A program made the translations under genes and the position numbers. Of a DNA stretch of 34,539 nt, positions 13,461 to 28,663 are shown piece after piece. This DNA comes from Clostridiales bacterium (GTDB lineage: Bacteria > Bacillota > Clostridia > Lachnospirales > Lachnospiraceae): the NCBI GenBank assembly GCA_023663185.1, contig JAMPHY010000030.1, forward strand, positions 1 through 34,539, written 5' to 3'. Every line of letters starts with the position of its first letter. The first letter of the stretch is position 1. The notes beneath the pieces are model-generated. The model did no database searches. It was not told the origin of the DNA and saw nothing but the letters and a program-made list of their open reading frames with translations.

Positions 13461-15095
13461 ATGAACAATCAACAATTTTCAACACCAACCCCCTACGCAC
13501 AGGGGACACAACAGCCTTACCCAAGCACTCAAATGTATCAGTCAATAACCGAGCCAGACGAAGAAACCCTTATGACGAAAAGCATGAAACGCCAATTTCC
13601 ATTTTTTAGTCTTACTACCGCAGTTTACGCCGTCTTCTATACATTCTGCCTATATAAAAACGCTTCGGGGATTACCTACCCTTTTTTCGTTATCGGAACC
13701 CTTTGTTATTTCTTCTTATCTATGAAAAAGCTAGGGGTTCCATTCAAAAAAAGCAGTCTTTTCTACGTGATTAGCATTGTACTGTTGGGAATTTCCAACT
13801 GCTGTACGGCTTCTTTACAGCTTCTTCTCTTAAATAAAGCCGGCATATTCCTTTTAAGCCTTATTCTTATGCTGCACACGATTTATCAGGATAAGTCGTG
13901 GAGTATATCTAAATATGTCAGCGCAATTTGCAGCACTCTCAGCAGCATTTTCGCCTGCCTTTTAAGCCCTTTTGAAGACATGGTTTCTTTTTTTGCTGCC
14001 CAAAAACAAGCGGATCGTAAAAAAAATAACAATTTTATCTATATTTTAATCGGCGTGGCAATCGCCATTCCGCTGCTTGCAGTCATTATTGCCTTGTTAT
14101 GCAGCGCGGATATCGTATTTCATAAGATACTAAACCAACTCTTTCTGGATTTCAGCTTTGCAGAAAGTTTTTCGGAGCTTTTTAAAATAGCGTTACTTAT
14201 TGCCGTTGTATTTCTTGTATCCTACGCGCTGTTGACCGCATTATGTCAAAAGAAAGTTACCGAAGAAGACACCGATAAAAGAGTTTTTGAGCCTGTAATT
14301 GCAATAGTCGTTACCGGAATGTTATCGGCAGTCTATCTCATGTTCAGTCTGGTTCAAATATTGTATTTATTTATCGGAAATATGCAGCTTCCCGACGGCT
14401 ATACTTATTCCGCCTACGCGAGACAGGGTTTCTTCCAGCTTCTTGCCGTATGTATACTGAATCTTATCATTGTGCTGCTTTGTCTGGGACTTTTTAAAGA
14501 CAACATGATATTAAAAGTAATTCTCACTATTATAAGCGGCTGCACATTCATTATGATTCTTTCGAGCGCTTTAAGAATGTTTATGTATATCGCACAGTAT
14601 AATCTGACTTTCCTGCGGATTTTTGTTTTATGGGCTCTTGTGGTTATATTTTTACTGATGTGCGGTGTAACCGCCTATATATATTTCCACCGCTTTCCAT
14701 TGTTTTTCTATAGCGTTGCGGTTACGACTGTCCTTTATATCGGGCTGTCGTTCTCCCACCCGGACTACTGGATTGCCTTATATAACCTGAATCCGCCGTT
14801 TAGTCATGAACAAACCGATAATATCGGCTACAGTTACGCCTATATCACAAGCCTGTCCGCAGACGCTGCGCCTGTTATATTGGATAAAAGATATAATCCG
14901 TATCTTAATCTTCCTATAGAAACGATGAAGGAGTCCGCCGCGCTTGATGAAAGAAACATTCCTTGTGACGATACAAATGACCGCCTTACCTATTATTATT
15001 ACAAAGGCATTTTTGATGATTCGGAGAATATGAATGTTAGGAGTTTTAACTTTTCGATATATATTGCCGCATGTACTGCTATGTTGTTGGATTGA
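13461..15095 (+). CDS. Polytopic DUF4173/DUF4153-type membrane protein
   Basis: 544 aa. The first 44 residues are hydrophilic and rich in Gln, Pro, Thr and Tyr. About a dozen membrane segments follow, ending near residue 435. The final 110 residues are soluble and include PVILDKRYNPYLNLPIETM and an acidic/tyrosine-rich stretch. The layout and the SADIVFHKILNQLFLDF-type loop fit the DUF4173/DUF4153 family often found beside YozG/DUF2975 proteins in Firmicutes; the molecular role is unknown. AAAGGAGG precedes the ATG. It is the last gene of the operon, closed by the terminator four bases after its stop. Confidence 0.82.
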   Translation: MNNQQFSTPTPYAQGTQQPYPSTQMYQSITEPDEETLMTKSMKRQFPFFSLTTAVYAVFYTFCLYKNASGITYPFFVIGTLCYFFLSMKKLGVPFKKSSLFYVISIVLLGISNCCTASLQLLLLNKAGIFLLSLILMLHTIYQDKSWSISKYVSAICSTLSSIFACLLSPFEDMVSFFAAQKQADRKKNNNFIYILIGVAIAIPLLAVIIALLCSADIVFHKILNQLFLDFSFAESFSELFKIALLIAVVFLVSYALLTALCQKKVTEEDTDKRVFEPVIAIVVTGMLSAVYLMFSLVQILYLFIGNMQLPDGYTYSAYARQGFFQLLAVCILNLIIVLLCLGLFKDNMILKVILTIISGCTFIMILSSALRMFMYIAQYNLTFLRIFVLWALVVIFLLMCGVTAYIYFHRFPLFFYSVAVTTVLYIGLSFSHPDYWIALYNLNPPFSHEQTDNIGYSYAYITSLSADAAPVILDKRYNPYLNLPIETMKESAALDERNIPCDDTNDRLTYYYYKGIFDDSENMNVRSFNFSIYIAACTAMLLD

Positions 15096-15098
15096 TTT

Positions 15099-15139
15099 AA
15101 AGCCATATGTAATCTGCAATAATTACATATGGCTTTTTT
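15099..15139 (+). terminator. Rho-independent terminator of the DUF2975-DUF4173 operon
   Basis: A perfect 15-bp stem AAAGCCATATGTAAT / ATTACATATGGCTTT around an 8-base loop is followed by a T-run (15134-15139). The A-run on the left arm means it could also serve the converging HEPN remnant on the minus strand. Confidence 0.9.
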
Positions 15140-15178
15140 GTAATGTTAATAATTTCCGACAGTATGATACTGTCATCA

Positions 15179-15555
15179 TCATTTATCTACTTCATCCTCC
15201 AGCAGAGCATATACCCATTGCACTATTTCCTCTGCATACAGAATAGCTTCTTTGGCATGACGTTCCTCCAAAAACAACTCATTTGGATATCTGACAGCCA
15301 CACCATACGGAGTAAGTGTATCCGCGTAATCATAATATTTATCTTCAATCTTCACATAATTTTTAACTTGATTTAGCAAAAACGATAAAGTGTCCCTCTC
15401 AATACCACTAATGCCTTAATAGCTTTTTCCGCAGCTTGTTGACAATGGTAGCAAATAATCTCCAAAGGCTTCGGATAGTAGTTCTCCATCAAATGCTTTG
15501 CAACTCCCAAATCCATATCGACCATATCAAGCCACTGTTTCGTTTCCTGCCTCAT
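15179..15555 (-). pseudogene. Broken HEPN-domain toxin gene
   Basis: Two minus-strand frames together encode one HEPN protein. The first (from ATG 15555) reads MRQETKQWLDMVDMDLG...CYHCQQAAEKAIKALVVLRG and stops at 15373. The second carries LSFLLNQVKN...YYDYADTLTPYGVAVRYPN...YAEEIVQWVYALLE and ends at 15179. The frame changes somewhere in 15376-15414. The region where this family normally has its Rx4-6H catalytic motif (usually followed by THDL) is missing or scrambled there. AGGAG lies before the first ATG, which overlaps the MNT gene by 29 bases, the usual MNT-HEPN layout. Likely a frameshift with a small internal deletion, giving an inactive toxin, although a sequencing error is possible. 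Confidence 0.8.
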
Positions 15556-15859
15556 ATAACAGCACTCCTTTTTCAAACACTTCATTTTCTACAGACACCA
15601 TATTTTTTCTTTCATTGAATCGGCTGCTAGTTCCTACGATAATATCTACAGGTCTTTGTTTCGTTGTACGAATCGCTTTATATGCACTCGCAGTCATTTC
15701 CACCAAATCAGTCACCTTATCATCTACTACAATATAAAAATCAAAATCGCTATTCACTGAATTTGTTCCATTCACAAATGAACCAAATAAATATATTTTT
15801 ATAGGCGATAACTGCTTTACAAATTGATTTTTTAATTCTTCAATTTCATTTATCGGCAT
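15527..15859 (-). CDS. MNT-domain nucleotidyltransferase antitoxin
   Basis: 110 aa from ATG 15859. The minimal nucleotidyltransferase motif is clear: IYLFGSFVNGTNSVNSDFDF, the GSx10DxD core that binds metal and nucleotide, with a later Asp in RPVDIIVG. In MNT/HEPN pairs the MNT protein AMPylates and silences the HEPN RNase, or binds it. A longer frame to 15934 exists, but its first codons fall inside the promoter at 15906-15934, so the shorter start is preferred; GGAAA lies upstream of it. The catalytic residues look intact although the partner toxin gene is broken. Confidence 0.9.
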   Translation of the reverse strand: MPINEIEELKNQFVKQLSPIKIYLFGSFVNGTNSVNSDFDFYIVVDDKVTDLVEMTASAYKAIRTTKQRPVDIIVGTSSRFNERKNMVSVENEVFEKGVLLYEAGNETVA

Positions 15860-15905
15860 GATAATGATTTCCTTTCCATTTTTAATAGACGTACTTTTAA
15901 ATTTA

Positions 15906-15934
15906 ATTATATACAGATGTCGGGCTTTTATCAA
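15906..15934 (-). promoter_or_regulatory. Promoter of the MNT/HEPN pair
   Basis: On the minus strand TTGATA (15934-15929), 17 bases, and perfect TATAAT (15911-15906). The predicted start of transcription is near 15899, 40 bases before the chosen MNT ATG. Confidence 0.75.
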
Positions 15935-15980
15935 CGAATATCCTCATGATTTTTTAGCATTAAATGCCGCCTTTTCCACC

Positions 15981-16574
15981 TTATCGCCCCAGCTGATATT
16001 CAATGCTGACCACAGTATCATTCTCGGCAATAATGATTAGTGAAGTCTCTCCCCTTGTATAGATATAGGATGTTCCCTCTGTCTCATAACCTTCCCCGTA
16101 GAGCGTTTTCATATCAGCTACACTATCTCCCAGACTCAGCCCTTCTGTCGTTGACAAATCAGGGGTTATAAAATAAATGGAATAAATACGCTCCTCTTCC
16201 TGAGCAAAATATGCCGTCAGTTCAAATGTCTTAAAATCATATACATTATCGTTCCCTTCAAATGCACAGCTTGGAACTTCTGCGACACTAGTATATTCCG
16301 GCAAAGTATCGTGATCTAAAAGTTCTCCCGGAACCAATGTGGCTCCTTCATATACAAAGCCAAACTCCCTCTCCTCTTCCTTCACCTTTTCCTCTTTTGC
16401 CAACTCTACTTTCCCATCGTCCTTATTTAAACCTTCCGCTCCGGCATTTTCCAGACTGCCAGGCTCCATACGAATATCCTGTGCTAAATCTACGGAAGCC
16501 GCACCTTGTCCGCAAGCCGATAATATTCCGGCAATTCCACATACAACAACCAATTTACTTATCTTCTTCATCAT
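15981..16574 (-). CDS. Lipoprotein, last gene of the BlaI-controlled minus arm
   Basis: 197 aa with a lipoprotein signal: MMKKISKLVVVCGIAGILSA followed by Cys21. A charged linker rich in Glu and Lys follows (about 40-72), then a domain ending in LSLGDSVADMKTLYGEGYE and TSLIIIAENDTVVSIEYQLG, whose layout recalls SmpA/BLIP-like folds that sense or bind partners. The family is not recognised. Its ATG lies inside the 3' end of the SGNH gene (20-base overlap) with AGGGGA ahead, indicating coupling. It is probably anchored on the outer face of the membrane beside the acylation proteins. Confidence 0.82.
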   Translation of the reverse strand: MMKKISKLVVVCGIAGILSACGQGAASVDLAQDIRMEPGSLENAGAEGLNKDDGKVELAKEEKVKEEEREFGFVYEGATLVPGELLDHDTLPEYTSVAEVPSCAFEGNDNVYDFKTFELTAYFAQEEERIYSIYFITPDLSTTEGLSLGDSVADMKTLYGEGYETEGTSYIYTRGETSLIIIAENDTVVSIEYQLGR

Positions 16575-17607
16575 TTTGTCCCCTCAGACTTTCTTCTATT
16601 ATAATGTCATAGCATTGTAGTTTTTCATCATAGACAGCCGCGATTTCCGAATCTTGACGATGGTCCGAAAGCCCATACTCTTCCGACAGAATCTTTCCGA
16701 AATAGCGGGAAAGTTTGACAGCGCCGGACAGGTTGAGATGGTAGCCGCCATCATAGGTATCCTGTGAAAAATCCAGTCCGATCTCTTCAGGACAGCCCGC
16801 AAAATTATAATACGACAGCCCATATTCCGCGGCATACTTCCTAATCTGTTCATCGTATTCTTCATACCAGTACGGATAGAGACTGGGTGCTTTTACAAGA
16901 ACCAGTTCCGTCCCATTTTCCTCGCATAGCAAACGCAGTTTATCCAAATATTCATAACAGACATCCGCAAATTGATAATCCGCCAGAACCTTTTTTGTCG
17001 GAAGCGCCCCTTCCGGTACCGTCTCTGTGTGCAGTTGAAAGCCGTTAAAGGTATGGTCTTTCACCCGAAAAAGCCAGAAAATGTCCTCCTGTGTCAACTG
17101 ATCAAAACGTGAATGGTAGCGAAGAATGGGAAATAAATAAGAAAGGAACTGTTCTTCCTCCGTCATGGAAGCCATAATTATCCCCACCTTGCTGCCTGAC
17201 CAGCGCATCTTATCAATCGTCAAGCGGTTATACGCTTCGCTGACCGGCTCAGAGTAGCGCATCGCATTCACATTAAATACCATAACTCGCGGCGTCTCAT
17301 AACGAAAAGTTTCCTCCGCCACATAATAACTCATCCAGACAAGTTGCTGCGGCGTTCCCCTTATATACGCCGTTATACCATAATCCCGGTACAGCTCCAT
17401 CGGTGAATAATTTGCATATACTTCACAGTCTCCAAGAAATATAACATCATGTCCGCCCACCTCACGATAGTATTGAGAGATAAAACTGCCCTCCACCAGA
17501 TCCGTCATATATTTCGGCTGGAGAAGTCTGGATATTAACACAAATACTATACAAAAAACAAACAGAACAACGCCAATGGACAGAATCTGTTTTCCTTTTT
17601 TCTTCAT
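16555..17607 (-). CDS. SGNH-hydrolase-like protein with Cys in place of the catalytic Ser
   Basis: 350 aa from ATG 17607, which follows GGGGAGG; the longer frame begins with TTG 17625 and lacks a site. One N-terminal membrane anchor (about 8-27) precedes an extracytoplasmic domain. The nucleophile block reads VIFLGDCEVYANYSP: the GDS of SGNH enzymes is GDC (Cys61). The C-terminal block DTYDGGYHLNLSG keeps the Asp/His pair. As the gene directly follows an MBOAT (14-base gap), it should be the extracellular partner that passes acyl groups to an acceptor, as DltD, AlgJ and PatB do. Cys could act as nucleophile in a thioester mechanism, or the protein may only bind. I recall GDC variants in other Firmicutes proteins, so this may be a subfamily trait. 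Confidence 0.82.
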   Translation of the reverse strand: MKKKGKQILSIGVVLFVFCIVFVLISRLLQPKYMTDLVEGSFISQYYREVGGHDVIFLGDCEVYANYSPMELYRDYGITAYIRGTPQQLVWMSYYVAEETFRYETPRVMVFNVNAMRYSEPVSEAYNRLTIDKMRWSGSKVGIIMASMTEEEQFLSYLFPILRYHSRFDQLTQEDIFWLFRVKDHTFNGFQLHTETVPEGALPTKKVLADYQFADVCYEYLDKLRLLCEENGTELVLVKAPSLYPYWYEEYDEQIRKYAAEYGLSYYNFAGCPEEIGLDFSQDTYDGGYHLNLSGAVKLSRYFGKILSEEYGLSDHRQDSEIAAVYDEKLQCYDIIIEESLRGQNDEEDK

Positions 17608-17621
17608 ATCCGCCTCCCCTG

Positions 17622-18893
17622 TCAAAACCGGCTGTATATAAACTCTGACGCCGAAAAACCAATCCCGTACATACCAAAAGTAAGAACCAACAACGTCAGC
17701 AGGCAGATTACACTTAGCTTTGCCGCCGGGGAAAATGCACAGAACCGCTCTCTCAGGCTTCCGCTTTTCCAGTCATACAGCCAAAGCAGCAGACACGCCG
17801 CACCCATGACCACCCAATCCCCCACGGTAAGCCCCATTCCGCCGATCCCGGCAAAGAAAACAGGGTAATTAAAAACTGTAAATACGGAACCTATCATCCG
17901 CAGCGCAACAACTGTATCAGGCCAGATAAAAAACGACCATAAAAAACTAACTAACAGAAACGTGATCACGCGGTTTAACACCTTGCTTCCCGTTTTCCAT
18001 TTATCCCCGCAAAATACGAAAATGCCATGCAATAGTCCCCATAAGAGATAACCTTCCCCATGCCAGATACCAGAAACCAAAAATACCGTCACGGTATTTA
18101 AAAATGTCCGCAATTTTCCCCTGCGGCTGCCGCCTAACGGAATATACACATATTCCCGGAGCCAGCTGCCTAACGTCATATGCCAGCGTCGCCAGAACTC
18201 CGAAACCGACTGTGAAAAATAGGGTGCGTCAAAATTCTCACTCATTCGCACACCCAACATTCGCGATATGCCCAGAACAATATCAATCCCACCGGAAAAA
18301 TCAGCATATAGCAAAACCGCATAGAAAAGCATTGCCGCAAGAGCGTATGCGCCGTTATAGCGCCCCCAGTCCGCAGATATCGCAGATACGATTACTTCCA
18401 ATCTGGCAGCAATCACCAGCTTTTTAAATAATCCCCACAGACTGCGAAGCGCGCCTTTCAAAAGATTATCCCCACTAATATGCCTTTCCGCCAGTGCCTT
18501 ACGCATCTTAGGGTATGGCTCAATCGGTCCGATAAACATATGCGGCAGCCATGTAACAAACAGTCCAAACCGCAGTATATTTTTCTCCGGCTCATATCTG
18601 CCCCGGTACAGATCCACATGATACGCTATGATCTGGAGCGCAAAATAGGAAATACCAATGGGCGCAGTGACAGACGGATATGGCAGCCAATGCTGCAGCC
18701 GGAAAAAAAGCAGCAGTAATACCTGCAGAACCGTACATATCCACATAACCTGACGATGTTTTGGAATCAGCCGCCCCGCCAGATAACTTAGCAGGGTTGC
18801 CGCCAACAGATACAGGACCGATATACCATATCCGGCATAGACCGCCAGCCCTGCTATGAAAAATATCAGTTCTATCATCATTGTTCTATTCAC
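17622..18893 (-). CDS. Second MBOAT-family O-acyltransferase
   Basis: 423-aa polytopic protein. Family motifs are APIGISYFALQIIAYHVD, FWRRWHMTLGSWLREYVY (His238) and VSGIWHGEGYLLWGLLHG with the invariant His278. It is shorter than the MBOAT at 3038 and only similar in these motifs, so the two are not a recent duplication. Its GTG start overlaps the end of the transglutaminase-like gene by eight bases; ATG codons at 18881 and 18878 are alternatives, and none has a strong ribosome site, fitting translational coupling. Predicted function: transfer of an acyl group through the membrane to the SGNH partner that follows. Confidence 0.9.
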   Translation of the reverse strand: MNRTMMIELIFFIAGLAVYAGYGISVLYLLAATLLSYLAGRLIPKHRQVMWICTVLQVLLLLFFRLQHWLPYPSVTAPIGISYFALQIIAYHVDLYRGRYEPEKNILRFGLFVTWLPHMFIGPIEPYPKMRKALAERHISGDNLLKGALRSLWGLFKKLVIAARLEVIVSAISADWGRYNGAYALAAMLFYAVLLYADFSGGIDIVLGISRMLGVRMSENFDAPYFSQSVSEFWRRWHMTLGSWLREYVYIPLGGSRRGKLRTFLNTVTVFLVSGIWHGEGYLLWGLLHGIFVFCGDKWKTGSKVLNRVITFLLVSFLWSFFIWPDTVVALRMIGSVFTVFNYPVFFAGIGGMGLTVGDWVVMGAACLLLWLYDWKSGSLRERFCAFSPAAKLSVICLLTLLVLTFGMYGIGFSASEFIYSRF

Positions 18894-20769
18894 ACGCCGG
18901 CCACGCAGAGCGGTCCCAGTTCCTTCCCTGTAATATGGAATACCTCTGAGCGTCCGTCATCAGACTGTACTTCGTATGTAAGCTGCCCGGCGTCGCGTCG
19001 ATATGCCGCCAGACACCGTTCAAATTAATGATGAGCCAATAATGCGACTTGTCAGTCACCCATATCAACTGGGTTTCATAGCCCTTTCGCGTCAAAAGGC
19101 TCTGTAGGCAGAGGGCGTGCACCAGACAATTTCCCGACTTATTGGTAAATCCGTACCACACCGGATCATCCCCACCGGCATTATGACTGTACTTGATGGT
19201 GTTACGGACATAATCCCTAATTGCTTCCGGATCATTACTAAGCCCTGCCGCTATGGAATCCGCCAGCGCGTCTGTATCTTCTTTATCATGCTCCACCACT
19301 ACTTTCCGCTTCGACGTAGCTGTGTTTCCATTTTTATCCTTTGACGTATAAGTGACATAATAAGTGCCTGCCGTAGTGACGTCTACGCCACCGGCGTCAC
19401 AAGTCACCTCGCAGACGCCATCTTCTGTATCGACTGCCTTGACTCCTGCAAGATAATTCGGCGTCGAATTTTTAGTAATGCTTAAAGTGGTAAGTCCTTT
19501 AATCACCGGCGGAGTCTTGTCCTTCACAACTGCCAGTGTTGCTGTGGCCGTGGCGATATTGCCGTTACAGTCCGTGGCTTCAATCGTCACAGTCTGCCTG
19601 CCAAGCGTATTCACATCCGGCTCTGTTACAAGGCGCACCTCCACATCACCAGACAAATCAGAGCAGGACTCTATGAAATCATCTACCGTGACCTTTTCCC
19701 TTTTGAAAACAGCAACATCCGTTACAGACAATTCCGGCGGTGTGGTATCCTCCACATGAATATGGCAGACCGAATCATCCACGAGGCTTTTAACCATATA
19801 ATCGCCCACCCCGGATTCATTGATCTTGTCAATATCGGTCTGCGCAATCTTAGAACTGTCCAGTTCCGGAACATAGAGCAGTTGCTCTTTTTCAAGCAGC
19901 TCTCCCAGCTCCATTGTATAATCGCTTAACATCCATACAATAGAAAGCGTGCACTCCTGTGAAACCGCATTTCCATATGCATCTTCCACTACCACGGTTA
20001 CGCTCTGATCTTTATAATCCGCCGGGATAGTCACCTCTTTTGCAAAAGAAACCGTAACTTCCGACAGGTCATAGCAGGACGCCACAAAATCAACGGAATC
20101 CGGAGTATAATCAGGCGTCTTCTGCAGCCATGGGATAAACTCCGCTTCCGGGGGCGTCGTATCTTCTACGGTCAGTGTAACCGTTTCGTTCTTATAACCG
20201 CTTCTCAGTGTCAAAGAACTGCTTCCCACCACACTAATATCTATTGTGGAAAGGTCTGTAACGATACCGGATCTTCTGGGATCCGCATACTTTGTCATAA
20301 AAGCTTCGACGCCGATAGTTTCTGTCCCCAGTTCCACTGTCAGATCATGGAATCTCGGCTGACTGTAATACCAATACGCAACACAGCCAAAGACCACAGC
20401 AGGCACAGCGCAACACCACATCCATTTACGGCTTTCCAAAAAATATGCCGCTATTGCATTTCTCTTTTTAACTGTTCCTTTCTCTTCCGGCTCTGTCTCC
20501 TCCCTGGCCTTTCCGAAGTTCAATTCCCATTCGAAACACTTACAATGCCGCAGATCCCCTCTTATAAAGTTTTCACATGTTGCACATTGCGGAATGACAA
20601 ATGATTCAATATCATCGCTGCAGGCTCCTATATCCATCAGGCTTTTTCTCCATCGTTCATGCTTTTTCGCGAATTTTTTACAATTATAGCATGTCTGCAA
20701 ATTCCAGTCAAATAAAGCCTGGTTCTTACACGATACTTGATACTGTACACCTTGAAGATTTAAGAACAC
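18886..20769 (-). CDS. Membrane protein with Ig-like repeats and transglutaminase-like C-terminus
   Basis: 627 aa. The first 110 residues are probably cytoplasmic and Cys-rich (Cys 14, 27, 30, 50, 62, 65, 76, 78, including CYNC and CATC), as for a metal-binding head. A membrane segment lies at about 115-135. Several DUF5011/HYR-like Ig repeats follow, each marked by DTTPPE or DKTPPV and GNAV/GNIA/GNTA. The end is a transglutaminase-like domain with the full triad: GNCLVHALC (Cys548), KSHYWLIIN (His576) and WRHIDATPG (Asp591). Such domains act as peptidases or acyl/amide transferases at the cell surface. The GTG start directly follows the BlaR1 stop (TAAGTG) without a ribosome site; ATG 20637 (residue 45) is the alternative and would remove four of the Cys. 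Confidence 0.85.
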   Translation of the reverse strand: MFLNLQGVQYQVSCKNQALFDWNLQTCYNCKKFAKKHERWRKSLMDIGACSDDIESFVIPQCATCENFIRGDLRHCKCFEWELNFGKAREETEPEEKGTVKKRNAIAAYFLESRKWMWCCAVPAVVFGCVAYWYYSQPRFHDLTVELGTETIGVEAFMTKYADPRRSGIVTDLSTIDISVVGSSSLTLRSGYKNETVTLTVEDTTPPEAEFIPWLQKTPDYTPDSVDFVASCYDLSEVTVSFAKEVTIPADYKDQSVTVVVEDAYGNAVSQECTLSIVWMLSDYTMELGELLEKEQLLYVPELDSSKIAQTDIDKINESGVGDYMVKSLVDDSVCHIHVEDTTPPELSVTDVAVFKREKVTVDDFIESCSDLSGDVEVRLVTEPDVNTLGRQTVTIEATDCNGNIATATATLAVVKDKTPPVIKGLTTLSITKNSTPNYLAGVKAVDTEDGVCEVTCDAGGVDVTTAGTYYVTYTSKDKNGNTATSKRKVVVEHDKEDTDALADSIAAGLSNDPEAIRDYVRNTIKYSHNAGGDDPVWYGFTNKSGNCLVHALCLQSLLTRKGYETQLIWVTDKSHYWLIINLNGVWRHIDATPGSLHTKYSLMTDAQRYSILQGRNWDRSAWPACE

Positions 20770-22116
20770 TTAATGCGGACATTTAGCATAGGCAATCTGG
20801 TTATCAAGACTTTCCTGCAGGCAAAAGCCGCATTTCTTACAGTAGATTCCTTTATAGATATACATAGTACAACCACTGCCTTGCTGAGCGTGATGATATT
20901 TGTCTGCACTTATATATTCGTGAGAACATGAACGGGCAGTCTCTTCGTCCACGGCGGTAATAGCATACTGATTGCCATATTCATCAATTATTATGTCAGA
21001 CGACAATGTAAAATCAAGCTGCATCAAAATATGATCTGACTCAAAGGGAGACTGTGCCTCATCAAAAACAATATACATATCGCCTATGCCTTCGTTAAAT
21101 TCGTAAGATGGCGCATTGCGGTAGACCGAAACCGGTTGATAAGCCAGCACGGATATAGGCATTGACAAGGCGGCTAAGAATATCACCAGCGCGGTTATAA
21201 GTTTTCGATAGGGTGATTTGTGATTTTTTCTTGTCATAAATAGTAATCTCTCCTTTGTCCGTTTTTTATTGGCAGAAAAAGCACCTGCAAACAACAGATT
21301 TATATCGTTCTGATACTTGGCGGCTTCAATAATTAAATTCTCATACTGTCCTTTTTGAATTTCGTCCAAAGATTGTGTTACCATTTCATCACAGTTCTTT
21401 TCACACGCAGTACACAGCTCATAAAAAAGGAGATAAACAAGCGGATTATACCAATGAATCAGCATTGTAAGAAAGGCAATAGATTTCCACAATATATCGT
21501 GATTTCTTATATGGGATAACTCATGTGACAGATATAGAGATAAATTTTCCGTATCATTTTGTTTAGGCAAAACAATAATAGGATAAAATAAACCGATGGT
21601 AAATGGGGCTCTCACAAATGGACAATACATGGTTTTCACTTTTTTTGCCCGCTTATGCAAGGTAATATCCGAACATTGCCTTATAATATCAGAATCTTCA
21701 GGATTGAAGCTTTCCGAAAACTGTAAAAGACTGTCTCTACAGAACCGATATTTTTTAATTTGCCGATATAGTGTGATTGTGACCGCAGCAAGCCATATGA
21801 CAGAAAAGATTAACAGCGGAAGCCAATATTTATAGCGCAGTCCACCGTCACTTGTTATGTAGATAGTATTCTTCCCTTCAAATACCATTATACCGTTACT
21901 CAGTGAATCCGGCTCTTTGGTTTTAAACAGAAAATTATAGAGTATGAGATATTTATCCCGAAAACATTGATAAGGAATCAGATAAAATAAAAGACATATC
22001 CTTATGAAATTATATTGCCAGCGCGCAGTAAGTAAACGATTAGCGAGAGGCTTTGTAAGCAGATATAACAGAAAAACAATACTGCCACTTATAGACATGG
22101 CAAAAAGAATGTTCAT
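20770..22116 (-). CDS. BlaR1/MecR1-like M56 membrane metalloprotease, signal transducer
   Basis: 448 aa. Membrane segments lie near residues 3-21, 36-52, 99-116 and 211-232, with the zinc-protease motif LSHELSHIRNHD (His198, Glu199, His202) and a later CEKNCDEM giving the third ligand. A last membrane segment (about 308-330) leads to an outer domain. That domain is not a penicillin-binding domain: it is about 115 residues long and ends in a Cys/His-rich tail (CSHEY, CTMYIYKGIYCKKCGFC, KCPH) suggesting a zinc-ribbon fold. In BlaR1, ligand binding outside triggers the protease, which leads to loss of the BlaI repressor. Here the ligand is unknown. ATG overlaps the BlaI stop by four bases. Confidence 0.92.
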   Translation of the reverse strand: MNILFAMSISGSIVFLLYLLTKPLANRLLTARWQYNFIRICLLFYLIPYQCFRDKYLILYNFLFKTKEPDSLSNGIMVFEGKNTIYITSDGGLRYKYWLPLLIFSVIWLAAVTITLYRQIKKYRFCRDSLLQFSESFNPEDSDIIRQCSDITLHKRAKKVKTMYCPFVRAPFTIGLFYPIIVLPKQNDTENLSLYLSHELSHIRNHDILWKSIAFLTMLIHWYNPLVYLLFYELCTACEKNCDEMVTQSLDEIQKGQYENLIIEAAKYQNDINLLFAGAFSANKKRTKERLLFMTRKNHKSPYRKLITALVIFLAALSMPISVLAYQPVSVYRNAPSYEFNEGIGDMYIVFDEAQSPFESDHILMQLDFTLSSDIIIDEYGNQYAITAVDEETARSCSHEYISADKYHHAQQGSGCTMYIYKGIYCKKCGFCLQESLDNQIAYAKCPH

Positions 22117-22496
22117 TTCTTCTTATTCCTTTCTCGTAGTAGTTTACGGAGTTCTTTTGCATCTTCCTCTGACAATCCTTCGCCTCCTGACAGCGCCGAC
22201 ACAAACGTTTTTAAAGAGCCGTTAAACAACTGGTTTAACAAGTTATTTGCAATCAATTTATCATATTCTTTCTTGGAGACTGCGGGGGTATATATTTTAT
22301 GGCGGTCTTCTCCGGAAGCAGTAAGGATTTCTTTAGCGATTAATGCTTGTATAAAGCAGTTGATTCGCTGGCGGGATTCTTTCTTACCGAGGCTGTTTAC
22401 ATAGTCGTGAATTTCGCCAAAAGTTGCACCATCTGGGGCGTTGTTCCATATGAACTTCATAATTTCATATTCTTTTGGTTTTAAGTCATAATTCAT
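22113..22496 (-). CDS. BlaI/MecI-family repressor
   Basis: 127 aa with the typical winged-helix start: LKPKEYEIMKFIWNNAPDGA, then GEIHDYVN and RQRINCFIQALIAKEIL, followed by a dimerisation helix region after HKIYTPAVSKKEYD. Members repress as dimers and are inactivated by proteolysis dependent on their M56 partner, here encoded with a 4-base overlap. The gene opens the minus arm. Two 20-bp dyads upstream (22531-22550, 22597-22616) are the expected operators, one within its own promoter. The C-terminal tail is long and Lys/Arg-rich. Confidence 0.93.
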   Translation of the reverse strand: MNYDLKPKEYEIMKFIWNNAPDGATFGEIHDYVNSLGKKESRQRINCFIQALIAKEILTASGEDRHKIYTPAVSKKEYDKLIANNLLNQLFNGSLKTFVSALSGGEGLSEEDAKELRKLLRERNKKK

Positions 22497-22528
22497 CAGG
22501 TCACCTTGTTCATTCTTTATTTTATATC

Positions 22529-22557
22529 AGTGTAAAATATTCTTTTTACAATGTCAA
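22529..22557 (-). promoter_or_regulatory. Promoter of the minus arm (blaI-like gene)
   Basis: On the minus strand TTGACA (22557-22552), 17 bases, TACACT (22534-22529). Operator 1 fills the whole space between the two boxes, so bound repressor would block the gene's own transcription. Confidence 0.65.
22531..22550. promoter_or_regulatory. BlaI-type operator 1
   Basis: TGTAAAATATTCTTTTTACA is a dyad with arms TGTAAAA and TTTTACA around six bases. It lies between -35 and -10 of the minus-arm promoter and differs from operator 2 at only two of 20 positions. The size and the TGTA/TACA ends resemble bla/mec operators. Confidence 0.8.
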
Positions 22558-22566
22558 GGCGGCATA

Positions 22567-22595
22567 TTGACTATGCGCGTGTGGATTGGTATAAT
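22567..22595 (+). promoter_or_regulatory. Promoter of the plus arm (S41-like lipoprotein operon)
   Basis: TTGACT (22567-22572), exactly 17 bases, and perfect TATAAT (22590-22595). The predicted transcription start near 22602 lies inside operator 2. Confidence 0.8.
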
Positions 22596-22596
22596 T

Positions 22597-22616
22597 AGTA
22601 AAATAATCTTTTTACA
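22597..22616. promoter_or_regulatory. BlaI-type operator 2
   Basis: AGTAAAATAATCTTTTTACA begins one base after the plus-arm TATAAT and covers the predicted start site. Arms GTAAAA and TTTTAC flank six bases. It lies 66 bases from operator 1, six helical turns or slightly more, which would allow the two dimers to sit on a similar face. Confidence 0.8.
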
Positions 22617-22646
22617 AAATAAGATTGAAACATAAAGGAGTATCTT

Positions 22647-24137
22647 ATGAAAAAAAGAGTTTGTCTACTTATATTGCTTTTCTGCCTGCTTCCCCTGCTG
22701 CCCGCCTGTGCCTCTTCGGTTCAGACAAGCATGGACGCCGATATGGAAGCTGTTTCCGTATCTGAGGAACAGCCTGCGGATTCTGATATAGAGATTTCCT
22801 CTACATCTGAGGAACAGCCTGCGGAGTCTGACACAGCAATTTCCTCTACATCTGAGGAACAACCCGCGGAGTCTGATATAGAGATTTCTTCCGCAACAGA
22901 TGATGAGACAGCTCCGGAGCTGTCAGAACGAGCGCAGAATTGGATTACCGACATTCACTACCTGCAAAGTCATTATAAGAAATATCACCCCAATCCTTTT
23001 CTATTTTGCTCAGAAGAAGACTTTGACTATAAGATTGACAAGTTATGCAAAACAGTGGAGAGCTTGTCCGACAATGAAATATTTTTCGAGCTGGCGACAA
23101 TCATCGCCGGAATGGGCGACCTTCATACAAGCCTTACGCCACCGGACTCTATTTATGAATACCTTTTCCCTTTTAGCGTCTCATATTTCGACGGTAAATT
23201 ATATCTGATTGGTTACATGGAAGGATATGAACAATTCGAGCCATATATGCTGCGGGAAATCGTTGCCGTTAATGGCGTGGATATCAGCTATATTGAAGAA
23301 AAATTTAAGAATCTCATTGATCCTAATAATATATGGAGAAGCAGAGAAATATTTTGTGTGGCATATTTTGTTCCGGCATTTTTTGACTGGGCGGGCTGCG
23401 ATTATCAGGTTGGATATACCTTTCAAATTCTGGACGAAAACCAGATGGTTCAATCTGTAGAAGCTCCCCTTGTGCCGTATGATGAGAGTGCAGCAGCCCA
23501 AATTATCTATCCTGAAAGCTGGGCTTCTTCTCTCAGTGCGGAAGAAGGAAACTGGACAGAATACCGCGAAGGTGAAAACGGCGGATACGTCTATATGAAT
23601 CTGGAACAGTTGGAGAGTCGCTCTAATGATATTTACCGAGCTCTGTTTGAAAAAACAGCCGAGCTTATAAAGATGCACCCTGACTGTTACAAGTTAGTCA
23701 TAGACCTTCGACGCAATTCCGGCGGTTATCTGGGCACTATTGACTTTATGCGTGAAGACGTGCAAATCCTAAAAGAGCTTTCAATCGACCAGATATATGT
23801 ACTCATCAACGGCTATACAGCCTCCGCCGCTATGGGCTGTCTCAGTGTATTCAAGGAAGAATTAAATGCAGTTACGGTAGGCGAGCCCACCGGACAGTTT
23901 ACTTCCTTTTTCTACCATAGATTATCCATGAATCTTGTTCTGCCGCTGTCACAGCTTCCCGTTTCCCTCTCTACCGGTTGGTATGAAGGATATAATTATG
24001 CAGGAGCTGTATATGACGAAGACGGCAAGCTATATGAATGGGAAAATACCGTCCTGCCGGACGTATATATCCATCAGGACATAGAAGATATCCGTCAAGG
24101 TAAGAACAGCGCACTGGAATGGGTGCTGGAACAGTAA
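22647..24137 (+). CDS. Lipoprotein with S41 (tail-specific protease-like) domain
   Basis: 496 aa. The signal peptide ends in LLPAC (lipidated Cys21). An acidic, repetitive linker (about 37-92) follows, then a catalytic domain. S41 landmarks are MGDLHTSL (His160), LVIDLRRNSGG (352-360), LINGYTASAAM (nucleophile Ser393) and VGEPTGQF. The usual PDZ is absent or very diverged, although IVAVNGVDI recalls the end of one. It would act outside the membrane, cleaving peptides or proteins; the closest group may be the short S41 family common in Lachnospiraceae. AAGGAG lies six bases before the ATG. It is the first gene of the plus arm under operator 2. Confidence 0.9.
   Translation: MKKRVCLLILLFCLLPLLPACASSVQTSMDADMEAVSVSEEQPADSDIEISSTSEEQPAESDTAISSTSEEQPAESDIEISSATDDETAPELSERAQNWITDIHYLQSHYKKYHPNPFLFCSEEDFDYKIDKLCKTVESLSDNEIFFELATIIAGMGDLHTSLTPPDSIYEYLFPFSVSYFDGKLYLIGYMEGYEQFEPYMLREIVAVNGVDISYIEEKFKNLIDPNNIWRSREIFCVAYFVPAFFDWAGCDYQVGYTFQILDENQMVQSVEAPLVPYDESAAAQIIYPESWASSLSAEEGNWTEYREGENGGYVYMNLEQLESRSNDIYRALFEKTAELIKMHPDCYKLVIDLRRNSGGYLGTIDFMREDVQILKELSIDQIYVLINGYTASAAMGCLSVFKEELNAVTVGEPTGQFTSFFYHRLSMNLVLPLSQLPVSLSTGWYEGYNYAGAVYDEDGKLYEWENTVLPDVYIHQDIEDIRQGKNSALEWVLEQ
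22761..22895 (+). repeat. Three in-frame 45-bp direct repeats in the S41 lipoprotein linker
   Basis: Units start at 22761, 22806 and 22851, each beginning TCTGAGGAACA and encoding SEEQPA(D/E)SDxxISS(T/A). The copies are nearly identical in DNA, pointing to recent expansion. The segment is acidic and unstructured and tethers the protease domain to its lipid anchor, so copy number would change reach without shifting the frame. Confidence 0.9.
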
Positions 24138-24180
24138 GTTTTGTCATGGCAATAGCTCAAAATATGAAGGAAAAAATATT

Positions 24181-24690
24181 ATGCTCAACAAAAAATGGAA
24201 AAAGGCATTATTTGTTTTCGTCTCCATATTCATTCTATACAGCGCGGTATGGAGCGCATATGTGACATACCGCTATGAGCCGTTTCGTAAAAAACTTGGC
24301 GCTACGGTTGGGTGCAGCAAATCATATCTGCAAAAAGACAGCTATACCTATAGCGTATTTAAGCCTCATTTTTTATCTTTCACGGGAAATCTGCATATTT
24401 CCGAATATATCACGTCAGGCGATAATCAGGACGAAGCTGTATCCGCGGATTTGATTATCTGGCCCCGCGGAATCAATGATTATGAAGTAATGGTTGGAAT
24501 TATCACGACAACTACATATAATAACGGTCATTCAACGCATAGTATCTGTACGAATATGGCGCTTGATAAGAATATGAACCTGTTAGACGACACGCCGGAA
24601 AACAGGGCATTGTATGAACAAAATCTGGATAAAATAGAGAATTTATATCACCTTGCATATGATATGTGGGGGATTTTAGAGTTGCCATAG
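24181..24690 (+). CDS. Small membrane-anchored protein of unknown function
   Basis: 169 aa with an uncleaved-looking N-terminal membrane segment (about 9-29) after a basic start, then an extracytoplasmic domain with two Cys (SKSYLQKDSYTY region and HSICTNMA) and a helical end (ENRALYEQNLDKIENLYHLAYDMW). Family not recognised. It stands between the S41 lipoprotein and the permease, 43 bases from each, in the place where related exporter operons often carry an accessory or substrate gene. It is too long and too unlike lactococcin 972 to be called a bacteriocin. AAGGA precedes the ATG. Confidence 0.8.
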   Translation: MLNKKWKKALFVFVSIFILYSAVWSAYVTYRYEPFRKKLGATVGCSKSYLQKDSYTYSVFKPHFLSFTGNLHISEYITSGDNQDEAVSADLIIWPRGINDYEVMVGIITTTTYNNGHSTHSICTNMALDKNMNLLDDTPENRALYEQNLDKIENLYHLAYDMWGILELP

Positions 24691-24733
24691 GGTACACAAA
24701 TTTGCAGGGCGAGAAAGGGGCGCGGCTATTGTA

Positions 24734-26683
24734 ATGAAGCTTGTCAGGTATTTATTCAGCGGCTTATTAATTGCCGCGGCATTATGTGTCAGTTGTGACC
24801 TTTTTCAAATATTCCTATACGCTTTTGACGACTTCTGGCAGACTTCTTTTTATGTAAAGGAAGAAATTAACACTGAACAGATGAAAGAGCAGATTTTTGA
24901 ATCTGCCAAAGGATACGGATTAGAAATTATTTACATAGATAAGCGTATCGTGGGAGATTATTACACACAGGTAGACATTTATTGCAGTAACGACGCCAAA
25001 GAAATGTTTGCCAAAGAATACCAGATAAAAGAAGGGCGTTACGGCAGCCTTCTTTCAGGGTGGGCGGATATATTTTTTTATTCGACGGAAGAACTGGACA
25101 GGGAATTAATGATAAAAGACGCTGAAGGATATTACCTTTTGGGACAGACGGAAAATGCCATAGAGTATAAAGCCACTCTGGTCGATACTTACGGCGGCAG
25201 TATGCCGCGCCCGAAAGAAAGGGACAGCATACGTGAAGCCCTCGTACAGATTATTTGGATTTGGTTTGCAGTCGGCGTTCTAATCTGGCTATTGACATAT
25301 TATAAAACCGTCGGGATTAGAAAAGAAATCGTGGTACGGTTATCGCTGGGCGAATCCATAGGCAGAATTGTATTATACCATTCCATTAAGGATACCTTGT
25401 GGTATTGCGCTTGTTTTTTGCTTACGTCATTAATTATCTATCGCACATATCACTGTCTGTTTTTGCTAAATTATGCGGCAGCAGCTTTAGCCGTCATTAT
25501 CTTAGGCTCAGTTTTGATTTATGCTTCACTGCTGCGCTGCGATATCAAGTTAGGATTCTCAGGAATAAAAATGTCTCAGAAACTTCTGGATGTAAGTTAT
25601 GTCCTCAAAACAATACTTACTTTCGCACTTGCCGTCTCCGCAGCGTCAACAATCGCCCTATGGGTAAGCTATTCCGAGATGGAGAAGCAAAGGGAGTTCT
25701 ATGAAGCGCGTAAAGAATATTTTTATTTAACTTTAGCGGGACCGTCCGGATTCAAGGATTCAATCAATACCGATGAAACATGGTTTTACAGAAATTATTT
25801 TTCCAAGTTCGATATGCAGTTTATATGCGGAAACGGCAGTTATGACATAACGAACCAGAGTAAACTGGCAATTTGTATAAATGCCAATATGAAAGACTAT
25901 CTGTGTGAAAATCTGCCTTCCGTAGCAAACGAAATCAGTAAAAGCAAGGCGTGTGTGCTGATTCCGGAGCAGGAATCCATGTCTGACGAAACGCTGAATT
26001 TTCTAATCGGCATTTCAGCGGACTTTGCCAATCTGCCAAAAGAAGACGCGCAGGCAATTTACTACAGCGACCGCGCGTATATAATTAATTATGATGTATA
26101 CAAGGGCTATGTCAGGTCATATTGCCCTGTGATTATTTACAACAACTGTATCGAAGATGCCAGACCGATTGAAGAAGGTCAGTCTATATTTGAATTAGAT
26201 TTCAGCAAGGTTATGATGAAGCCTGACATTGCAGAGTTGGAAAGCTTCTGCACGGAGTATGAATACAGATATGTATTGGAAAACGTATGGCTTACTTTTG
26301 AGCATGAACTGAACAATCTTAAAAGAGGGGCGTTTATGAATATGCTCATTCTGCTATTCCAATGTACTGTGGAGTTATGTCTGAGTTTCGCCATTATCCG
26401 CTTAGAATTTGAAACGAACCGCCTCGAAATCATGGTAAAGAAGATACTCGGCTATTCCGTAATAGGAAGAATTAAAAAGCAACTGATACTGACCTTAGTA
26501 TCTGGGGTTTTCGGAATTATTGCGGCAGTAATCTTCTATATAATCTTTAGCCTCGCCCACATCGCTATTGTGTGCGTCGTTATTTTAAGTTTAATGCTTA
26601 TTGAATTATCTGTGATAGTAGTTAAATTTCTCCATATGGAAAAAGAGAGTATTCAGAAAACACTGAAAGGCGGATTTATATAA
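24734..26683 (+). CDS. Bacteriocin-associated-type ABC permease (DUF1430/FtsX-like)
   Basis: 649 aa. A first membrane segment (about 6-28), an outer domain to about 165, a cluster of membrane segments at about 165-310, a second large outer domain (about 320-525) and three final segments (about 530-635). This is the layout of MacB/FtsX-like permeases; the sequence style, including SLGESIGRIVLYH and ILGYSVIGRIKKQ after the segments, fits the bacteriocin-associated integral membrane proteins found with lactococcin-972-type ABC ATPases. Such exporters give immunity or move peptides and lipoproteins out of the membrane. The AAAGGGG site is rather far from the ATG. Stop and the next ATG overlap (TAATG). 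Confidence 0.85.
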   Translation: MKLVRYLFSGLLIAAALCVSCDLFQIFLYAFDDFWQTSFYVKEEINTEQMKEQIFESAKGYGLEIIYIDKRIVGDYYTQVDIYCSNDAKEMFAKEYQIKEGRYGSLLSGWADIFFYSTEELDRELMIKDAEGYYLLGQTENAIEYKATLVDTYGGSMPRPKERDSIREALVQIIWIWFAVGVLIWLLTYYKTVGIRKEIVVRLSLGESIGRIVLYHSIKDTLWYCACFLLTSLIIYRTYHCLFLLNYAAAALAVIILGSVLIYASLLRCDIKLGFSGIKMSQKLLDVSYVLKTILTFALAVSAASTIALWVSYSEMEKQREFYEARKEYFYLTLAGPSGFKDSINTDETWFYRNYFSKFDMQFICGNGSYDITNQSKLAICINANMKDYLCENLPSVANEISKSKACVLIPEQESMSDETLNFLIGISADFANLPKEDAQAIYYSDRAYIINYDVYKGYVRSYCPVIIYNNCIEDARPIEEGQSIFELDFSKVMMKPDIAELESFCTEYEYRYVLENVWLTFEHELNNLKRGAFMNMLILLFQCTVELCLSFAIIRLEFETNRLEIMVKKILGYSVIGRIKKQLILTLVSGVFGIIAAVIFYIIFSLAHIAIVCVVILSLMLIELSVIVVKFLHMEKESIQKTLKGGFI

Positions 26684-27291
26684 TGATAGAGATTAAACAT
26701 TTATCTAAAAGCTTTGATGAAAAGCAACTGTTTGAGGATTTTAATTTAACTATAGGTGACGGAGAGTTCGTTGTTTTCTGGGGAGAAAGCGGCTGCGGGA
26801 AAACAACCCTTCTCAATATGATAGGTTCATTGGAAAAAATCGATAGCGGAGAAATTCTTGTCAACCATAAGGACATTTTTCTTAGGAAAAACCAGCGGGA
26901 ATATTTAAAAAACGAAGTCGGATTTTTATTCCAGAATTTCGCGCTGATTGAAGCAAAAACCGTGCGGGAAAATCTGGAAATGGTAAAAAAACAAACCCGC
27001 TCTGAATATACCACAGAACAGGCTTTAGAGTATGTAGGCTTATCGGACGTTATAGATAAAAAAGTATACAAACTCTCAGGCGGAGAACAGCAGCGGGTTG
27101 CATTGGCAAGACTGATGATTAAAAAATGTTCTATCATATTAGCAGACGAGCCTACAGGTTCGCTTGATTCAAACAACGCGGATAAGGTGATAGAATTATT
27201 AAAATCGTTAAACGGCATGGGGAAAACCGTTATCTTGGTAACACATGTTGAAAAGTACAAGCAGATGGGGTTTCGGACGATAGAAATATAA
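26683..27291 (+). CDS. ABC transporter ATPase of the bacteriocin-export type
   Basis: 202 aa, the size of LolD/MacB-type and lactococcin-972-group ATPases. Walker A GESGCGKTT (34-42), Q-loop FLFQNFALI, signature LSGGEQQRVALAR, Walker B SIILADEPTGSLD and switch His in LVTHVEKYK are all intact. Coupled to the permease by a one-base overlap, so the two form one transporter, with energy supplied from the cytoplasmic side. It ends the plus arm; no terminator is apparent before the converging MATE gene 16 bases away. Confidence 0.95.
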   Translation: MIEIKHLSKSFDEKQLFEDFNLTIGDGEFVVFWGESGCGKTTLLNMIGSLEKIDSGEILVNHKDIFLRKNQREYLKNEVGFLFQNFALIEAKTVRENLEMVKKQTRSEYTTEQALEYVGLSDVIDKKVYKLSGGEQQRVALARLMIKKCSIILADEPTGSLDSNNADKVIELLKSLNGMGKTVILVTHVEKYKQMGFRTIEI

Positions 27292-27307
27292 TCCCGCGGG
27301 ATAACTT

Positions 27308-28663
27308 CTACTCCCTGCTCTTTTGCATCTCATGGATTACGCTGAGTCCTATCGGCACTGATATCGCCAGCGTCAATACGTCTGATACCCCCTGACACAT
27401 CTCCACGCCAGTAAGCCCGAAAAAGTGCGGAAGAATATAAATAAGCGGAATAAAGCAAAGCCCCTGTCTTGCCGAAGCGACTATCGAAGCTTTCAAACCT
27501 TTTCCTATCGACTGTAACATCATGTTGCACATTACAATCCATGCGTTCAACGGAAAAGCTGCCGCCTGATACCGCAATGCCGCCGTTCCGACCACGATTA
27601 CCTCCGGGTCCCCTTTTCTGAACAGCGCTACCACTTCCGGCGCAAAAATAATTCCCGCACCGCCTATAACGATTAAGAATAACAGCGCATATTTTACGCA
27701 GAACCAAAATGCTTCCAGCACCCTGTCATATTTTCCTGCTCCATAGTTAAATCCGCATACCGGCTGAAATCCCTGTCCGAATCCAATCAGCGCAGAGTTG
27801 GCAAACATTGCTACCCTTGACACAATGGACATTCCTGCGATAGCTGCGTCACCATAAACACCCGCCGCATGATTCAAACAGATTGTCGCCACGCTTGCAA
27901 GCCCCTGTCTGCACAGCGAAGGCGTGCCGCCGCGTATAATTTCCTTATAGTAATGAAGGCTCGGCTTGAAATTACGGAAACGAATCTGAATATTTCCGCC
28001 TTTTTTTATCATGATAATAAGGATAATGAAGCTTACATACTGGCTGATTACCGTAGCTAGCGCCGCTCCCGCGATTCCCAGTCCGCATGTAAAAATCAAC
28101 AACGGATCTAAAATAATATTGAGTACCGCTCCTGACACTATCCCTATCATCGCATAAAAAGCGCTCCCCTGAAAGCGCATCTGGTTATTCAGAACCAGCG
28201 AAGAAGTCATTGCCGGCGCGCCTATCAAAATTATTCCCAGATAAGAAACAGTATAGGGCAGTATCGTATCCGTAGAACCAAGCGCATATGCAAGCGGTCT
28301 GACAAAAACCAAGCCTGCTGCCATCATTACTATCCCTGCGATAAACGCAGAAAAAAATCCTATCGACGACATTTTCTCCGCCTCTTCAAGTTCCTGCGAG
28401 CCAAGTTTTCTGGATATGTAATTGCCGGAACCATGCCCGAAGAAAAATCCGACTGACTGAATAACCGCCATCATGGAAAATACGATACCCACGGCTCCAG
28501 TCGCCTGCGTATTGATTTTCCCCACGAAAAACGTGTCCGCCATATTATAAAAAGAAGTAATCAGCATACTTAAGATGGTCGGTCCCGCCAGCGAACACAC
28601 CAGCGTCCTTACAGGCGCCTCCAACATATATTTTCTTTTCTCTTCCGCATTATTAAATTTCAT
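27308..28663 (-). CDS. MATE-family multidrug/sodium antiporter (MepA-like)
   Basis: 451-aa protein with 12 membrane segments in two related halves. Typical MATE features are the N-terminal TILSMLITSFYNMADTFFVG, the SQYVSFIILIIM region and the second-half GFNYGAGKYDRV, which places it near MepA-type exporters that expel cationic drugs in exchange for ions. GGAAGGGA lies before the ATG. It converges with the ABC ATPase. It is monocistronic, with a possible promoter at 28765-28793 and a leader of about 95 bases. No MarR-type regulator is next to it. Confidence 0.93.
   Translation of the reverse strand: MKFNNAEEKRKYMLEAPVRTLVCSLAGPTILSMLITSFYNMADTFFVGKINTQATGAVGIVFSMMAVIQSVGFFFGHGSGNYISRKLGSQELEEAEKMSSIGFFSAFIAGIVMMAAGLVFVRPLAYALGSTDTILPYTVSYLGIILIGAPAMTSSLVLNNQMRFQGSAFYAMIGIVSGAVLNIILDPLLIFTCGLGIAGAALATVISQYVSFIILIIMIKKGGNIQIRFRNFKPSLHYYKEIIRGGTPSLCRQGLASVATICLNHAAGVYGDAAIAGMSIVSRVAMFANSALIGFGQGFQPVCGFNYGAGKYDRVLEAFWFCVKYALLFLIVIGGAGIIFAPEVVALFRKGDPEVIVVGTAALRYQAAAFPLNAWIVMCNMMLQSIGKGLKASIVASARQGLCFIPLIYILPHFFGLTGVEMCQGVSDVLTLAISVPIGLSVIHEMQKSRE

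Follow-up and report, generated by a model that had tools for sequence, protein, structure and literature searches.

A putative BlaI/M56 switch with a Cys/His outer domain beside bacteriocin-type transporter genes in a Lachnospiraceae bacterium

The window (the whole stretch of 34,539 nucleotides analysed here) carries, between positions 15,981 and 27,291, a BlaI/M56 switch that has a non-penicillin sensor and stands on bacteriocin-type transporter genes, a finding that we regard as real and partly new. To our knowledge, BlaI/BlaR1 signalling is known almost solely for beta-lactams. The Cys/His outer domain of the M56 protease is undescribed, and this gut bacterium appears to use the repressor and this protease to control a small set of bacteriocin-type transporter genes. 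As an overall explanation, a lactococcin-972/mediterrocin-type transporter switched by BlaI and M56 fits best, and we give it about an even chance of being right. The strands and coordinates of the ten open reading frames were re-checked in the sequence and agree with the preliminary description, as does the spacer of 150 bases between the divergent arms (22497-22646). The six minus-strand genes had been read there as one unit; the genes and their strand are borne out, but they fall into a two-gene and a four-gene unit. Unit 1, a BlaI-like repressor with M56, divergent from genes for an S41-like protein, a small anchored protein, a DUF1430-like permease and an ATPase, holds up. The transglutaminase, MBOAT, SGNH and lipoprotein genes are better described as unit 2, a four-gene neighbour of blaI-M56. 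The features are:

15981..16574, minus: lipoprotein, no Pfam family
16555..17625, minus: SGNH-like membrane-anchored protein (Lipase_GDSL_2, 18.3 bits, below the cut-off of 32.9)
17622..18893, minus: MBOAT O-acyltransferase (PF03062, E = 5.9e-28, 98.6 bits)
18886..20637, minus: transglutaminase-like Ig-domain protein, probable start ATG 20637 (core 30.5 bits, Ig-like 37.6 bits)
20711-20683, minus: promoter-like site TTGACT-17-TATAAT with TG before it, 5' of the transglutaminase block (scan)
20770..20928, minus: C-terminal Cys/His domain of M56 (C397, H399, H409, C416, C426, C429, C446, H448)
20770..22116, minus: M56 membrane metalloprotease, 448 aa, BlaR1-type antirepressor without penicillin-binding domain (PF05569)
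22113..22496, minus: BlaI/MecI-like repressor, 127 aa (PF03965, E = 2e-20)
22529..22557, minus: predicted BlaI promoter TTGACA-17-TACACT (pattern scan)
22532..22549, no strand: predicted operator 1, GTAAAATATTCTTTTTAC, between -35 and -10 of the BlaI promoter
22567..22595, plus: predicted plus-arm promoter TTGACT-17-TATAAT, extended -10 (pattern scan)
22598..22615, no strand: predicted operator 2, GTAAAATAATCTTTTTAC, starting two bases after the plus -10
22647..24137, plus: S41-like lipoprotein, 496 aa (PF03572, E = 1.1e-8, 35.2 bits)
24181..24690, plus: small protein, 169 aa, one N-terminal membrane helix, no Pfam family
24734..26683, plus: DUF1430/TIGR01654-like seven-helix permease, 649 aa (models below cut-off)
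26683..27291, plus: ABC ATPase, 202 aa, lactococcin-972 export/immunity type (TIGR03608)

A repressor gene beside an M56 protease gene, with a divergent target gene, is also the arrangement of BlaI/BlaR1 and MecI/MecR1. The repressor has a Penicillinase_R domain (Pfam PF03965, 73.7 bits against a cut-off of 22.6) and is 74-89% identical across five relatives, and its gene shares a four-base overlap with that of M56. The M56 match covers residues 3-293 (PF05569, 125.3 bits, E = 3.5e-36) and includes the protease residues H198, E199, H202, D207, E239, D243, Y258 and R290, all of them invariant in the 11 sequences compared. Every BlaR1 protease residue named in an excerpt of PMC9834060 (the gluzincin HEXXH, EXXXD, Asp, Tyr and Arg) is kept, and judging by these residues the protease is very probably competent. 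Unlike BlaR1 and MecR1, the window protein has a Cys/His domain in place of the penicillin-binding sensor. Pfam recognises M56 alone in it, with no match to such a sensor; a profile of the 11 M56 proteins aligns with residues 1-384 of the 602-residue chain of BlaR1 8exp and no further, ending before the sensor, and the window protein scores 100 of 400 bits against the NCBIfam model of BlaR1. The BlaR1 homologue of Mycobacterium tuberculosis, as excerpted from PMC9834060, is likewise an M56 protease without a beta-lactam sensor, but that excerpt reports no equivalent sensor domain for it, and the window protein has a different, conserved C-terminal domain.

This domain follows the pattern C-x-H ... 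H ... C ... C-x2-C ... C-x-H and matches no Pfam entry. Its eight Cys/His residues are invariant in the 11 M56 proteins, some of which are only 24-26% identical to that of the window. A model of the domain matched in 42 of the 77 genomes that make up the genus, in 16 of 200 drawn from the family and in 2 of 291 drawn from the class (the window genome is included each time), almost always in frames of M56 length. The pattern is satisfied in 52 of 54 inspected loci, and a BlaI match adjoins the M56 gene in 48 of these 52. Taken together, the intact protease residues, the BlaI neighbour and the different outer domain indicate that the proteolytic switch serves other signals in gut bacteria. We infer from its residues that the domain may bind zinc. 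Tentatively, and with clearly less than even confidence, we suggest a distinct class of M56 antirepressors, widespread in one Lachnospiraceae genus, in which the Cys/His domain, likely with two zinc ions, replaces the penicillin-binding sensor, senses a signal from a peptide antibiotic, a metal or a thiol, and governs swappable cargo under a two-operator switch. If this is true, such proteins would form a general plug-in type of proteolytic sensor, and the beta-lactam version would be merely its best-known case.

A sensor for metal or redox state, with the transporter serving metal or envelope redox homeostasis and not bacteriocin immunity, seems unlikely to us. The eight conserved Cys/His residues would suffice for two four-ligand zinc sites, and the kin of BlaI include the copper regulator CopY (excerpt of PMC5772342), to whose NCBIfam model TIGR02698 the repressor scores 43 bits with a cut-off of 122. 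However, these sites are perhaps purely structural, the partner genes of the Cys/His M56 proteins are highly variable, with an ABC ATPase at most four genes away in 27 of the 52 loci, and no metal transporter was identified among the neighbours scanned, which are a part of all neighbours.

Control of both spacer arms by BlaI and M56, as proposed in the preliminary description, agrees with the layout of the spacer, from which two operators on two promoters are predicted with high probability. Two exact copies of GTAAAATAWTCTTTTTAC (22532-22549 and 22598-22615) lie there, and no further exact copy was found elsewhere in the genome. Both operators, with the pattern GTAAA-N8-TTTAC, are kept in the four relatives with a readable spacer (G160, G166, G161 and G213, where G166 and G161 are near-identical in this region; those relatives for which a named record was matched are Lachnospiraceae metagenome assemblies). 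They are spaced by 66 bases in the window and G160, 67 in G166 and G161 and 81 in G213. A repressor promoter TTGACA-17-TAC(A/T)(C/A)T spans copy 1 in all five, reading TTGACA-17-TACTAT in the four relatives. A TTGAC-17-TAT promoter precedes copy 2 in the window, G160, G166, G161 and a further relative, G185, and no site in G213 fits this pattern. When one mismatch was allowed, the observed count of the operator pattern was reached in 1 (G160), 16 (G166) and 2 (G213) of 5000 shuffled spacers each. For the spacer of the window itself such a test is circular, because the motif was derived from these very spacers; two matches with up to three mismatches occurred in 3 of 100 window shuffles, and at this tolerance the pattern and its reversed control each have 41 sites genome-wide.

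Under a transporter switched by BlaI and M56, the repressor would repress its own operon (blaI-M56) and, through the second operator copy, also the divergent operon of S41, small protein, permease and ATPase. Autoregulation through operators in a shared spacer, predicted here from the sequence, and the retained protease residues are further likenesses to BlaI/BlaR1 and MecI/MecR1; the target differs, being a transporter and not a beta-lactamase or PBP2a. A signal would be sensed by the extracytoplasmic Cys/His domain, upon which the cytosolic metalloprotease would inactivate the repressor and both promoters would open. By analogy with the known systems, cleavage of the repressor is likely to be the switch. 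The resulting lactococcin-972/mediterrocin-type transporter would then protect from a wall-active peptide or move such a peptide. It is conceivable, with rather more doubt than confidence on our side, that the signal is a wall-active peptide of the lactococcin-972/mediterrocin type or the wall damage that it causes. G160 and G213 carry the same module of BlaI, M56 and operators opposite different cargo, and the cargo therefore does not fix the signal. Since the domain is small, two operators are mapped and the gene set is rare, the signal is directly searchable with a reporter.

The cargo resembles the lactococcin-972/mediterrocin pair of DUF1430 permease and ATPase in gene order and families. 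Among the family assignments made earlier, those of the BlaI, M56, transglutaminase, MBOAT and S41 domains stand, while the permease, ATPase and SGNH matches are below cut-off. The ATPase comes closest to its model (TIGR03608, 232.8 bits, just below the cut-off of 254.85, best of 204 models). The permease, which shows seven hydrophobic stretches in a simple scan, scores 27.6 of 28.2 for DUF1430 and 23.0 of 189.35 for TIGR01654, both under cut-off. Differences from the known pair are the extra S41 and small anchored proteins and the BlaI/M56 control; an excerpt of PMC12345188 includes a transcription regulator in the cluster described there, without giving its family. Moreover, no bacteriocin gene was recognised here: the profiles PF09683 and NF052268 matched neither in the own genome nor in the 77 genus genomes, and the controls matched nowhere either, so that these missing matches prove no absence of a bacteriocin gene. 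The small anchored protein, for which Pfam gives no family match, accompanies the permease and is 51-92% identical in six compared relatives. In contrast to the arm of outer proteolysis proposed in the preliminary description, the S41 gene, which is indeed present here, occurs in only 3 of the 77 genus genomes, and outer proteolysis is thus no fixed part of the system.

A distant permease-ATPase pair (G538, L144) has a mediterrocin-family gene nearby (NF052268, 125.2 bits, cut-off 40), and an excerpt of PMC12345188 gives DUF1430 proteins a likely role in immunity within lactococcin-972-type clusters. On these two grounds the transporter may serve immunity, and not export or another substrate, a reading that falls slightly short of an even chance. 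Export of a peptide or lipoprotein of the cell's own, with the S41 and small anchored proteins as processing partners, is improbable in our estimate. The name of TIGR03608, putative bacteriocin export, and the small secreted proteins next to related transporters in G538 and G448 would speak for it, but the plus arm has no secreted peptide gene, most permease carriers are without S41 (present in 2 of the 9 in the genus), and mediterrocin itself is predicted to be Sec-dependent in the excerpt of PMC12345188.

The permease is found in 9 of the 77 genus genomes and 5 of 392 genomes of the order, the window counted, which gives 12 loci outside the window (8 in the genus, 4 in the order). BlaI/M56 or a remnant adjoins it in five of these (G185, G161, G166, G187 and G448) and is not nearby in the other seven, among them G214, whose contig spans 6 kb, and the broken locus of G234. 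In G166 and G161 the divergent genes encode proteins of 311 and 290 aa, the permease, the ATPase and the small protein, and G163 and G168 have the permease set in surroundings like those of G166, with BlaI-M56 absent. Four proteins are encoded opposite the repressor in G160, the permease being absent. In G213 a first ORF, presumably transposase-like, precedes the genes of a secreted protein (137 aa), of three membrane proteins and of a further ATPase.

Some of these loci are of interest in their own right. In G185 (L046 9838-10517) a deletion removes all of BlaI, most of M56 and part of operator copy 1; operator 2 remains with its promoter, as do the transporter genes, and the locus is a natural test of constitutive expression. 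In G187 (L084 9857-12038) the transporter genes occupy the same genomic position and adjoin a different BlaI/M56 type, with an M56 of 613 aa and another spacer sequence, which is a regulator exchange; the contig with the close BlaI-M56 pair of that genome stops within the spacer. G448, from another family of the order (L145 8204-14165), has a candidate bacteriocin cluster under BlaI/M56: here BlaI and M56 stand in one row with a secreted protein of 128 aa, an anchored protein of 194 aa, the permease and the ATPase.

When genes are adjacent and tightly spaced in a single genome, they can look like one combined system for which relatives give no support, and unit 2 is such a case. The junction of zero bases between M56 and transglutaminase in the preliminary description is not confirmed and stems from an overlong ORF (GTG 20769). 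In five relatives the start regions fit ATG 20637, and the gap between the two genes is then about 132 bases. A promoter-like site in this gap is one of three scoring 11 of 12 in 15000-27700; since the scan counted 45 sites in this region and 32.4 in shuffled sequence, a single such site is weak evidence alone. Close relatives of the transglutaminase (72-76% identity) occur in five other genus genomes. The transglutaminase, MBOAT and SGNH genes are consecutive in the four readable loci, with the SGNH gene beside MBOAT in all four and the lipoprotein gene, itself without a Pfam match, in two; the fifth is a 3-kb contig with transglutaminase and MBOAT only. None of the five has a BlaI or M56 match near the block. 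Moreover, the block is absent from the syntenic spot in G185, G187 and G164, where a DUF4153 gene runs straight to an M56 gene. The flanks in G185 are about 90% identical DNA, and the match resumes at 20760, ten bases past the M56 stop. The simplest history would be that this lineage acquired the block by insertion beside M56. The MBOAT-SGNH order resembles DltB/DltD-like or other such pairs; unlike in these, the MBOAT is far under the DltB cut-off (131.7 of 375 bits) and has a transglutaminase-like partner.

No strong terminator was found between M56 and the block, and read-through is therefore possible in this genome. The first 70 bases after M56 fold with -8.8 kcal/mol here versus -22.5 in G185 and -21.1 in G187. 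The block may carry its own promoter and also be read through from BlaI, and it is quite probably an independent neighbour that may receive such read-through. A single BlaI/M56 regulon in which envelope acylation, surface proteolysis and export are induced jointly would fit the same strand and short gaps from BlaI through the lipoprotein gene, the weak fold after M56, and the co-occurrence of block (6/77) and permease (9/77) in 3 genomes (hypergeometric P = 0.019, relatedness ignored; on separate contigs in G161 and G168). Yet it is very unlikely, given that the block occurs without BlaI/M56 in all five other loci, is missing in three relatives and has its own promoter-like site, that the terminator scan did not list the G185 hairpin, and that G160, G166 and G213 have no comparable one. 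The claim of one system of envelope acylation and export is hence not upheld, and the genes of the transglutaminase-MBOAT-SGNH block do occur independently elsewhere, an outcome that the preliminary description itself had named as refuting its proposal.

Several smaller observations concern the block and its surroundings. The N-terminus of the transglutaminase has one CxxC...HCxC motif here (20530-20600, minus) and two in each of L080, L081 and L082. A second cluster of the transglutaminase-MBOAT-SGNH-lipoprotein type is present on contig C4 of the same genome (L089 2901-9896). Farther away, the minus-strand gene 8816-11533, possibly one for defence, has a 905-aa product in which HD and PRTase-CE domains were recognised; G185 lacks the gene at the syntenic position. 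The lipoprotein gene is adjoined, in the region 15179-15934, by a HEPN gene (15373-15585, minus, PF05168) and, next to it, an MNT-type nucleotidyltransferase gene (15527-15934, minus), both missing in G185; the HEPN frame looks split, with the ORF 15179-15379 as its second piece.
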